In this document: one piece after another, positions 19,419 through 58,436 of the stretch
How the letters are laid out: every line of letters starts with the position of its first letter
How positions within the stretch are numbered: position 1 is the stretch's first letter
DNA from: Sediminimonas sp.
GTDB lineage: Bacteria; Pseudomonadota; Alphaproteobacteria; Rhodobacterales; Rhodobacteraceae
Reading direction: 5' to 3'
DNA: 64,000 nucleotides
Assembly (NCBI RefSeq): GCF_024637375.1
Contig: NZ_JAGXFK010000058.1
Coordinates: forward strand, 1 to 64,000
Program-made: the position numbers and the translations under genes
The notes under the pieces: model-generated
Told to the model about the DNA's origin: nothing
The model's database searches: none
Seen by the model: the letters and a program-made list of their open reading frames with translations, nothing else

Positions 19419-19774
19419 GCCTGCGGCTTCCCTCTGATGCCGGATTTCGCCTTGCCCCAACATAAGTGGGACGGTTCCAAACGTGAATGCCCCCACGGGC
19501 GAAACTCGCTGGTGGGGGGCGATCCCGGGCTGCGCCCATGGGACCGGAAGCATGACCGGCTTCCGGAGATTTGGTTCCCGTTAAGCGCAGGCGGCGCGGG
19601 AGTCAAGCCATGCGGGCGCGTTTCGCGGCATGGGCCGGCGCGTGCGGCTGGCGCGTGCGGCGCGCTTTGCCTTGTGCCACCGCACGCACCGGACTAGAAA
19701 GTCGTGCGGATGTGTTGATCTGCGCACATACGCCCCCCGCATCCGTCCGAAACCGACAGCGCGCGAGGCCTGCC
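19419..19774. promoter_or_regulatory. Divergent intergenic region ffh / LysR (356 bp)
   Basis: No gene is apparent here. It should hold the ffh promoter on the minus strand and the LysR promoter on the plus strand. A hairpin CCGGAAGC-N7-GCTTCCGG lies at 19544-19566. A loose dyad ATGTG-N10-CACAT at 19710-19729, 46 bases before the lysR start, could be a LysR autoregulatory site. I looked for an SRP RNA and saw none. Confidence 0.35.
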
Positions 19775-55945: not shown

Positions 55946-57520
55946 TCAGCCCGCGTCCTTGTAGCTGACGGCGCGGGTGTCCTCTCCGGGGGCGGATTTC
56001 TCGCGCCGCACCAGCAGGCGGTTGAGCGCGTTGACATAGGCGCGCGCGCTGGCCACCACGGTATCGGTGTCGGCCGACTGGCCGGTGACGATGCGGCCCT
56101 CTTCCTCCATCCTTACGCTGACGGTGGCCTGGGCGTCGGTGCCTTCGGTCACCGCGTGGACCTGGTAGAGTTGCAGGTGTGCGTCGTGCGGGAACAGCGC
56201 CTTGACGGCGTTGAAGGCGGCATCGACGGGGCCGTCGCCGGTTTCGCGCGCGGTCTTTCCGGTGCCGTCGATGACCATTTCCAACTCGGCCTCGGCCGGG
56301 CCGCCGGTGCCGCACACGACGCGCAGCGACTTGATCTGGAGCCGGTCGTTTTCCGGGTCGTCGCCGGCATGGACAAGCGCGATCAGGTCTTCGTCGTAGA
56401 CTTCTTTCTTGCGATCGGCGAGATCCTTGAAGCGGGCGAAGATATCGGCCAACTGGTTATCGGCCATATCGAAGCCCAGCTCGTGCAGCTTGGCGCGCAA
56501 CGCGGCGCGGCCCGAATGCTTGCCCATCACCAGGCTGGTTTCGGCCAGGCCGATATCCGCGGGGCGCATGATCTCGAAGGTTTCGGCGTTCTTGAGCATC
56601 CCGTCCTGGTGGATGCCGGATTCGTGGGCGAAGGCGTTCTTGCCGACGATGGCCTTGTTGAACTGCACCGGGAAGCCCGAAACGGTGGCAACGCGGCGGC
56701 TGATGTTCATGATCCTGGTGCTGTCCACCCGCGTGTGCCACGGCATGATGTCGTGGCGCACCTTGAGGGCCATCACTACCTCTTCCAGCGCGGTATTGCC
56801 GGCACGTTCGCCCAGCCCGTTGATTGTGCATTCGATCTGGCGCGCGCCGCCTTCGACGGCGGCCAGCGCGTTGGCCGTGGCCATGCCCAGATCGTTGTGG
56901 CAGTGGGTCGCGAAGACGATCTCGCCGGCGCCCGGCACTTCGGCGATCAACCGGCGGATCAGGTCGGCCGATTCCACCGGCGCGGTATAGCCCACCGTAT
57001 CGGGAATGTTGATGGTGGTGGCACCGGCCCTGATGGCGATCTCGACGACCCGCTTGAGGTAATCCCATTCGGTGCGGGTGGCGTCCATCGGCGACCATTG
57101 CACGTTGTCGCACAGGTTGCGCGCGTGGCTGACCGTTTCATGGATGCGATCGGCCATCTCGTCCTGGGTGAGGTTCGGGATCGCGCGGTGCAGCGGCGAG
57201 GTGCCGATGAAGGTGTGGATGCGGGGCCGGTGGGCGTGTTTCACCGCCTCCCAGCAGCGGTCGATATCCTTGGGGTTGGCGCGCGCCAGCCCGCAGATCA
57301 CCGCCTGTTTCGAGCGTTCGGCGATGTCCCTGACGGCCTTGAAGTCGCCCTCGGAGGAGATCGGAAAGCCCGCTTCGATAATGTCCACGCCCATGTCGTC
57401 GAGCATCTCGGCGATTTCCAGTTTCTCGGCATGGGTCATGGTGGCGCCGGGCGATTGTTCGCCGTCGCGCAGCGTCGTGTCGAAGATCAAGACGCGGTCT
57501 TGTTCAGGAATCTGGGTCAT
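55946..57520 (-). CDS. leuA: 2-isopropylmalate synthase
   Basis: A 524-residue enzyme condensing acetyl-CoA and 2-oxoisovalerate, the first step of leucine synthesis. The catalytic start is LIFDTTLRDGEQSPGATM and the metal HxH motif is FATHCHNDLGMATANA. The C-terminal LeuA regulatory domain (about residues 390-510) is present, so leucine feedback is expected. A leucine-rich leader peptide and hairpins precede it. Confidence 0.97.
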   Translation of the reverse strand: MTQIPEQDRVLIFDTTLRDGEQSPGATMTHAEKLEIAEMLDDMGVDIIEAGFPISSEGDFKAVRDIAERSKQAVICGLARANPKDIDRCWEAVKHAHRPRIHTFIGTSPLHRAIPNLTQDEMADRIHETVSHARNLCDNVQWSPMDATRTEWDYLKRVVEIAIRAGATTINIPDTVGYTAPVESADLIRRLIAEVPGAGEIVFATHCHNDLGMATANALAAVEGGARQIECTINGLGERAGNTALEEVVMALKVRHDIMPWHTRVDSTRIMNISRRVATVSGFPVQFNKAIVGKNAFAHESGIHQDGMLKNAETFEIMRPADIGLAETSLVMGKHSGRAALRAKLHELGFDMADNQLADIFARFKDLADRKKEVYDEDLIALVHAGDDPENDRLQIKSLRVVCGTGGPAEAELEMVIDGTGKTARETGDGPVDAAFNAVKALFPHDAHLQLYQVHAVTEGTDAQATVSVRMEEEGRIVTGQSADTDTVVASARAYVNALNRLLVRREKSAPGEDTRAVSYKDAG

Positions 57521-57540
57521 GGTGACAACTCTGGTCTGGA

Positions 57541-57625
57541 AAATCTGCTAAGGGTGGCGGGGCGCGAAGGGCACATCCTCTGAGCGGTCGCGCCGGGGTG
57601 GCACGCTCAGAGGCGGCTTAGCAGA
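57541..57625 (-). promoter_or_regulatory. leuA transcription attenuator
   Basis: Two nested inverted repeats lie between the leader peptide and leuA. The outer one is TCTGCTAAG (57625-57617) with CTTAGCAGA (57552-57544), the latter followed by TTTT. The inner one is CCTCTGAGCG (57613-57604) with CGCTCAGAGG (57586-57577). The first outer arm overlaps the run of leucine codons and the first inner arm overlaps the leader stop codon. Ribosome stalling at Leu codons would therefore change the fold. The exact terminator/antiterminator assignment is not determined. Confidence 0.75.
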
Positions 57626-57690
57626 AGCAGGGCACCGGGCAGGGCGCCGGCGGCGCGCGCACAAGTCGCGATATGGCCCGTCTGTGTCAT
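57607..57690 (-). CDS. leuL: leu leader peptide
   Basis: A 27-codon ORF too short for the track: MTQTGHIATCARAAGALPGA followed by LLLLSRL and TGA. Six of its last eleven residues are Leu, including four consecutive codons CTG CTT CTG CTA. It ends 86 bases before leuA. This is the classic layout of an attenuation leader sensing charged tRNA-Leu. A very short upstream ORF (MYMLPP) overlaps its start as ATGA. Confidence 0.82.
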   Translation of the reverse strand: MTQTGHIATCARAAGALPGALLLLSRL

Positions 57691-57776
57691 GGGGGCAGCA
57701 TATACATCCTGCGGGGCAAATGAAAAGCGCGAATTTTCCGGTTGAACGCACTGCGCGTGCGGCTAGGTCGCCTGCA

Positions 57777-58436
57777 ATGGACAGGGCATTGGTCATCGGC
57801 GCCTCGGGCGGGATTGGCGCGGCCATCGCGGCCGAACTCGGCGCGCGGGGCTACGCCGTCACGGGCCTGTCGCGGGCGCAAGACGGGCTGGAGGTCACCG
57901 ACCCGGCGGCCATCGAGGGCGCACTATCGCCGCTCGACGGGCCGTTCGCGCGCATCGTCGTTGCCACCGGCACGCTGGCCGATGGCGGCGCCCCGGAAAA
58001 ATCCCTGGACGCGATAGATGCCGCGCGCATGGCGCGGGTCATGGCGGTCAACGCGATCGGGCCGGCGCTGATCCTGGGTCATGTGGGGCGGCTGTTGCCG
58101 CGCGATTCGCGCGCCGTGGTGGGGGTGCTGTCGGCGCGCGTGGGCTCGATCGGCGACAACCGCATGGGCGGATGGCATTCCTACCGGGCCTCGAAGGCGG
58201 CGTTGAACCAGGTCGTGCGCGGCGCAGCAATCGAGATCGGGCGCCAGCGCCGGCAGGCCATCGTCGTGGCGCTGCACCCCGGCACCGTCGAGACGCCGTT
58301 CACCGCCGGTTATCCGGGCCATGCCAAGGTGGCGCCCGGCCATGCGGCGGCCAGGTTGTGCGAGGTGATGGACGGGTTGAACCGCCGCCAGAACGGTGGG
58401 TTCCTCGACTATGCGAGCGAGCCGATCCCGTGGTAG
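57777..58436 (+). CDS. SDR-family oxidoreductase
   Basis: A 219-residue short-chain dehydrogenase/reductase. The cofactor loop is VIGASGGIGAAIAAELG, and the catalytic Tyr/Lys are in WHSYRASKAALNQV, with a structural Asn in MAVNAIGPALI. It has the C-factor/CsgA-like short form. Substrate unknown. ATG 57777. Divergent from leuA. Confidence 0.88.
   Translation: MDRALVIGASGGIGAAIAAELGARGYAVTGLSRAQDGLEVTDPAAIEGALSPLDGPFARIVVATGTLADGGAPEKSLDAIDAARMARVMAVNAIGPALILGHVGRLLPRDSRAVVGVLSARVGSIGDNRMGGWHSYRASKAALNQVVRGAAIEIGRQRRQAIVVALHPGTVETPFTAGYPGHAKVAPGHAAARLCEVMDGLNRRQNGGFLDYASEPIPW

Follow-up and report, generated by a model that had tools for sequence, protein, structure and literature searches.

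Leader peptides of amino-acid operons are usually presented as acting through transcription termination, and the question raised by the leuA locus of Sediminimonas sp. is whether its Leu-rich leader works in that way. The 64,000-nucleotide stretch of DNA analysed here (the window) carries, in front of leuA, a short Leu-rich ORF followed by inverted repeats and a run of T, and a sequence-only reading had interpreted this as a leucine attenuator with alternative hairpins. From comparisons across the Alphaproteobacteria we favor another answer, with a probability of about two in three (0.66): the region would be a leucine-responsive leader-peptide switch, of the type of the actinobacterial LEU element, that acts mainly on leuA translation. 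The features on which the argument draws are the following, given in the direction of transcription.

57717..57726, minus strand: conserved -35-region sequence TTTTCATTTG, TTTT(C)(A)TTT, located roughly -35 to -28 relative to the leader ATG in an alignment of 72 Rhodobacteraceae
57697..57702, minus strand: -10 box TATGCT, 6 nt 5' of the leader ATG, which predicts a leaderless start
57607..57690, minus strand: leader peptide ORF of the leuL type, 27 codons, MTQTGHIATCARAAGALPGALLLLSRL and then the stop; relatives have the same kind of leader
57619..57630, minus strand: four consecutive Leu codons, CTG CTT CTG CTA
57617..57625, minus strand: A, the 5' arm of the outer (base) stem, TCTGCTAAG, within the Leu codons; pairs with A', with covariation
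57604..57613, minus strand: B, the 5' arm of the inner stem, CCTCTGAGCG, over the last leader codon and TGA
57600..57604, minus strand: I, GTGCC, alternative upstream partner of GGCGC
57589..57594, minus strand: C, GGCGCG in the inner-stem loop, which forms the pseudoknot with C'
57577..57586, minus strand: B', the 3' arm of the inner stem, CGCTCAGAGG, 10 bp with B
57561..57566, minus strand: C', CGCGCC, the 3' arm of the pseudoknot stem
57544..57552, minus strand: A', the 3' arm of the outer stem, CTTAGCAGA, 9 bp with A, ending 23 nt 5' of the leuA ATG
57540..57543, minus strand: TTTT after A', not conserved
57529..57532, minus strand: AGAG, weak Shine-Dalgarno-like motif 8 nt 5' of the leuA ATG, assigned by its sequence
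55946..57520, minus strand: leuA, 2-isopropylmalate synthase, 524 aa, with about 77-85% full-length identity to other Rhodobacteraceae leuA

The leader ORF with its four consecutive Leu codons lies at 57690-57607, where the sequence-only reading had placed it, and one of the Rhodobacteraceae leuA relatives of the gene downstream carries the record annotation 2-isopropylmalate synthase. The fourth codon before the leader stop (codon -4) specifies Leu in all 74 Rhodobacteraceae leaders, and is CTT in 43, CTA in 29, and CTC and CTG in one each; CTT or CTA therefore accounts for 72/74, despite the small share of these two codons among the Leu codons of the leuA genes (7.8% for CTT and 0.7% for CTA). 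At the remaining Leu codons of the 74 leaders the third positions are free to vary, and at codons -7 to -5 Leu identity is mostly kept while the nucleotides differ. The leaders typically end in LLLL(S/T)RL and a stop in Rhodobacteraceae, and in LLLLxCP, LLLLxRP or LRLxCP and a stop outside that family; the final two residues (CGCCTCTGA or GCCCCTGA) seem to be dictated by the RNA stem. Leaders outside Rhodobacteraceae (L133, L145, L164, L201, L205 and others) often contain CTT CGA CTT A, in which the CGA Arg codon between the two Leu codons is strongly conserved and the base stem includes part of the motif. A further conserved motif is CATATC, which in the window forms leader codons 6-7 (CAT ATC, His-Ile; 57675-57670), and which is kept across Rhodobacteraceae 15-20 nt past the predicted start.

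The two nested inverted repeats of 9 and 10 bp are likewise present as first described, with the first arms lying within the Leu codons (A) and across the last leader codon and TGA (B), and with TTTT after the last arm at 57543-57540. A chance origin of the repeats is ruled out by shuffles together with conservation: among 2000 dinucleotide shuffles of 57520-57630, a perfect repeat of at least 9 bp arose in 20 and one of at least 10 bp in three, and a nested pair (at least 9 bp, one of them at least 10 bp) arose in none. The energy of the whole-leader fold is unremarkable (z -1.2) and uninformative, and the case therefore rests on the repeats and their comparative conservation.

That conservation is extensive. 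Across an alignment of 68 sequences, pairing is maintained in 98.4% for the inner stem B:B' and in 95% for C:C', and both partners have changed at three pairs of the former and two pairs of the latter. Taken jointly, the two stems exceed 500 shuffles, none of which reaches the observed value on any of five measures, and slid controls score lower for paired cells, covariation score, cells changed on both sides, and pair types, with one slid control tying the observed count of pairs changed on both sides. Pairing of the B loop with downstream sequence gives z values of 6.5 and 4.0. As read from these alignments, B:B' and C:C' together constitute a predicted H-type pseudoknot, which was absent from the sequence-only reading. 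There is real competition for GGCGCG (57594-57589), which can take either the upstream GTGCC or the downstream CGCGCC as its partner; the GTGCC:GGCGC pairing is kept in 97% of cells in 68 genomes, but shows no change on both sides, and is a plausible alternative on this pattern. Across Rhodobacteraceae the Leu codons are kept and so are the stems, with compensatory changes, and the loss of conservation that the sequence-only reading had named as fatal to its proposal is not what the alignment shows.

The promoter region is preserved as well. TTTTCATTT is present around -35 to -28 of the leader ATG in the 72 aligned leaders, and a TATA-type hexamer lies 6-8 nt 5' of the leader ATG in 71/72 aligned Rhodobacteraceae and 9 nt away in the remaining one. 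Under a stricter rule such a hexamer is found 5-9 nt 5' of the leader ATG in 127 of 142 loci, and a control at the leuA ATG yields 0/142. By this spacing, the first transcribed nucleotide is probably the A of the leader AUG, which would make the uORF leaderless. The trpL leader peptide of Sinorhizobium meliloti is an established leaderless example (PMC10117765, PMC7298713), and LeuL1 of Streptomyces lividans is reported to be leaderless as well (PMC8079986). Judged from the alignments, then, leader, stems, pseudoknot and promoter spacing are all conserved.

The outer stem A:A', which closes a 64-nt loop, is the component that connects the Leu codons with leuA. It was evaluated by comparing pairing within each genome to permuted pairings, because MAFFT alignment misplaces A' and the Paracoccus C', and contiguous-helix scores replaced plain duplex energies of A against downstream sequence, which were blurred by long interior loops. 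Pairing of A with its own A' stands well above permutations both in 74 Rhodobacteraceae (z 11.7) and class-wide in 47 loci (z 4.7), in tests that leave shared ancestry in. The A' partner also follows the leader codon: in 85 genomes CTA goes with TTAG 35 to 1, and CTT with TAAG 48 to 1, such that 83/85 agree. The best leuA tree requires ten or more changes of the CTA/CTT codon, and when only well-supported branches are used there are three independent codon/A' pairs, all three of which agree (p 0.25), too few for significance.

The location of A' is informative about the step that is likely to be controlled. A' ends about 20 nt 5' of the leuA AUG in most Rhodobacteraceae, and coincides with the leuA Shine-Dalgarno (SD) sequence in the Paracoccus loci L042, L046 and L048 and in other lineages (e.g. 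L162 GGATAAGGA, L208 TCGAAGGA, L233 GAGTAAGTTTATG, L164 and L216). This puts the partner of the Leu codons at the leuA ribosome-binding site or immediately 5' of it, a position that suggests control at translation. A ribosome stalled at the first Leu codon was simulated by removing the stretch that it covers from predicted folds that leave out the pseudoknot. Of 74 such folds, the SD zone becomes more open in 40 and more closed in seven; for the A' zone the numbers are 55 and six. In the window the A' zone opens, from 0.40 to 0.82, and the SD zone barely shifts, from 0.39 to 0.44.

We propose that transcription begins at the A of the leader AUG, and that ribosomes load on the leaderless mRNA. 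With ample Leu-tRNA, the ribosome would pass the Leu codons and leave at the leader stop, and the freed Leu-codon strand A would pair with A', which either immediately precedes the leuA ribosome-binding site or, as in other lineages, coincides with it. The A:A' helix would stack around B:B', which lies over the leader stop, and the C:C' pseudoknot, and leuA initiation would be blocked. When Leu-tRNA is scarce, the ribosome would wait on the Leu codons and cover A, such that A' and the initiation region stay open and leuA is translated. In this scheme we infer the translation of the leader, the stalling, the direction of the switch, and initiation as the controlled step. The position of A' in the window and in most Rhodobacteraceae, off the SD, speaks against it to the extent that a block of initiation would be less direct there. 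The small shift of the window's SD zone in the simulated folds counts on the same side, as do the S. coelicolor leader mutants and the locus L235 described below.

Rho-dependent termination could be added to translational attenuation, or could replace it. Once leuA translation is blocked, or the leader ribosome is released, Rho would be able to terminate transcription in the leader or early in leuA. Such a scheme operates without an intrinsic terminator, and all of the pairing data are compatible with it, but alone it does not explain why A' pairs with the Leu codons, and we regard it as unlikely.

Classical ribosome-mediated transcription attenuation, in which the outer stem and TTTT would form a terminator unless a ribosome stalls on the Leu codons, is attractive at first sight in the window, where a Leu-rich leader precedes leuA and a stem ends in TTTT, and leu attenuators of this sort have been predicted in Shewanella (PMC2659441). 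However, among the 38 loci whose outer stem is clear, the window is the only one in which TTTT comes directly after that stem, a run of at least five T anywhere between the hairpin and leuA is found in 1/142 loci, and a scan of 57300-58000 detected no intrinsic-terminator-like site. An intrinsic terminator was rejected as a candidate because the U-run is not conserved. The length of the outer-stem loop also counts against it, as does the presence of A' at the leuA SD in other lineages. Furthermore, the inner repeat sits within the outer one and the two can form together, a mutually exclusive antiterminator/terminator pair is absent, and the description of the two repeats as alternative hairpins does not hold. 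What survives of the proposed leucine attenuator is thus the conserved Leu-rich leader in front of leuA, and not its mode of action by transcription attenuation, which we consider very unlikely. A distant alphaproteobacterial locus (L235) has a long B:B' hairpin over the leader stop followed by eight T, an arrangement that resembles a true terminator and shows that B:B' can turn into one.

A close published parallel in layout is the LEU element of Actinobacteria, located upstream of leuA (Seliverstov et al. 2005, PMC1262725), and composed of an ORF with a Leu run, a base stem between the Leu codons and the leuA SD, a pseudoknot, and an alternative hairpin. Seliverstov et al. preferred a protein regulator for it, and doubted attenuation because mutants of Streptomyces coelicolor in the leader Leu codons were reported to misfit the classical form. 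For the element described here, we find it highly improbable that the structured RNA binds a regulatory protein or a small molecule, with the leader peptide not acting as the sensor. The strong conservation of the pseudoknot and the S. coelicolor leader mutations (cited in PMC1262725) would favor that reading, but the leader start and promoter spacing are preserved across the family, codon -4 encodes Leu in every one of the 74 leaders with a varying third position, and Leu is mostly held at codons -7 to -5 despite nucleotide changes.

Returning to the LEU-element-type translational switch, the likeness includes the upstream ORF with its run of Leu codons before leuA and the pseudoknot inside the base stem. 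A base stem on the SD is seen in several other alphaproteobacteria and in Paracoccus; the stem in the window covaries and ends 23 nt before the AUG, and that of Rhodobacteraceae usually ends about 20 nt 5' of the AUG and not on the SD, which is a difference from the actinobacterial element. The elements also differ in that the hosts here are Alphaproteobacteria, and in that the leader stop is inside pseudoknot stem 1. This comparison is one of published layouts; in a Streptomyces plasmid leuA locus (L245) no Leu leader is present in the 185 bases upstream. LeuL1 of S. lividans (MRFGLLLLSCRGEGL and then the stop; PMC8079986) is similar in being leaderless, in its LLLLSC motif, in its position before leuA, and in the lack of a Rho-independent terminator in that description, but belongs to another phylum, has a longer tail past the Leu run, and is described there as an RNA-seq annotation. 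The trpL/rnTrpL system of S. meliloti is also an alphaproteobacterial leader peptide on a leaderless transcript, although it responds to tryptophan and uses transcription attenuation that yields a short RNA (PMC10117765, PMC7298713). The enterobacterial and Shewanella leu attenuators share the Leu-rich leader peptide before leuA and the use of ribosome position as the sensor (for Shewanella, PMC2659441), but employ a terminator/antiterminator pair, whereas the alphaproteobacterial element is without a conserved terminator.

A bolder suggestion, which we offer as a tentative possibility, is that a single leuA switch, either ancient or spread horizontally, is common to Alphaproteobacteria and Actinobacteria. 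In it the Leu codons of a leaderless uORF would serve both as sensor and as the strand closing the ribosome-binding site, and a pseudoknot would be built on the uORF stop. If true, a leader-peptide switch controlling translation, and not termination, would span two phyla. Tractable hosts such as Paracoccus and Rhodobacter could settle the matter of ribosome stalling in the LEU element, which the Streptomyces mutants left open.

The distribution of the element was determined in 173 non-redundant leuA loci of Rhodobacteraceae, drawn from named genome contigs and whole genomes and limited to those with sufficient upstream sequence. A strict test, for a Leu-rich leader and a perfect hairpin over its stop, is passed by 142 of these, and a covariance model (R1) matches 21 of the other 31 (17 of 27 searched, plus L029, L035, L038 and L111). 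In eight of the remaining ten a cupin gene directly precedes leuA and the upstream DNA covers only about 400 nt, and the element may lie beyond the cupin gene; L286 and L354 are the two other loci among these ten in which no element was detected. In some Rhodobacteraceae the leader element is separated from leuA by a small cupin-domain gene, with the element located 5' of that gene in L022, L029, L035, L111, L120 and L122, and this arrangement suggests that the cupin-domain gene is probably co-regulated with leuA.

Beyond the family, R1 has matches at E <= 0.001 in 39/289 genomes of an Alphaproteobacteria-wide sample; every one of the 30 matches retrieved precedes leuA, with a cupin gene intervening in two cases. 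A loose test finds a leader and hairpin in 54 of 86 class-wide leuA regions, including seven that look spurious or misplaced and were dropped from later tests. In a phylum-wide sample, 30/30 R1 matches are within Alphaproteobacteria and none is outside, and there is one strong match in the window's own genome. The leader element is common to most of the Rhodobacteraceae examined and to many other alphaproteobacterial families.

Searched against Rfam, the leaders of the window and of ten relatives match no family at its curated score. The enterobacterial leu leader corresponds to the Rfam family Leu_leader (RF00512). We found no alphaproteobacterial example of a leuA leader switch in the open-licence literature searched, and an earlier prediction may exist. 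The element is very widespread in Alphaproteobacteria and absent from Rfam, has no conserved terminator, and is tied to the leuA ribosome-binding region. Two matches to other RNA families were observed: chrB-b RNA (RF03086) at 2482-2526 on the minus strand of the Bradyrhizobium locus L065, a few hundred bases 5' of the leuA leader, and, in the window, the ffh sRNA family (RF01793, Rfam) at 19482-19533 on the minus strand, with a score of 61 bits.
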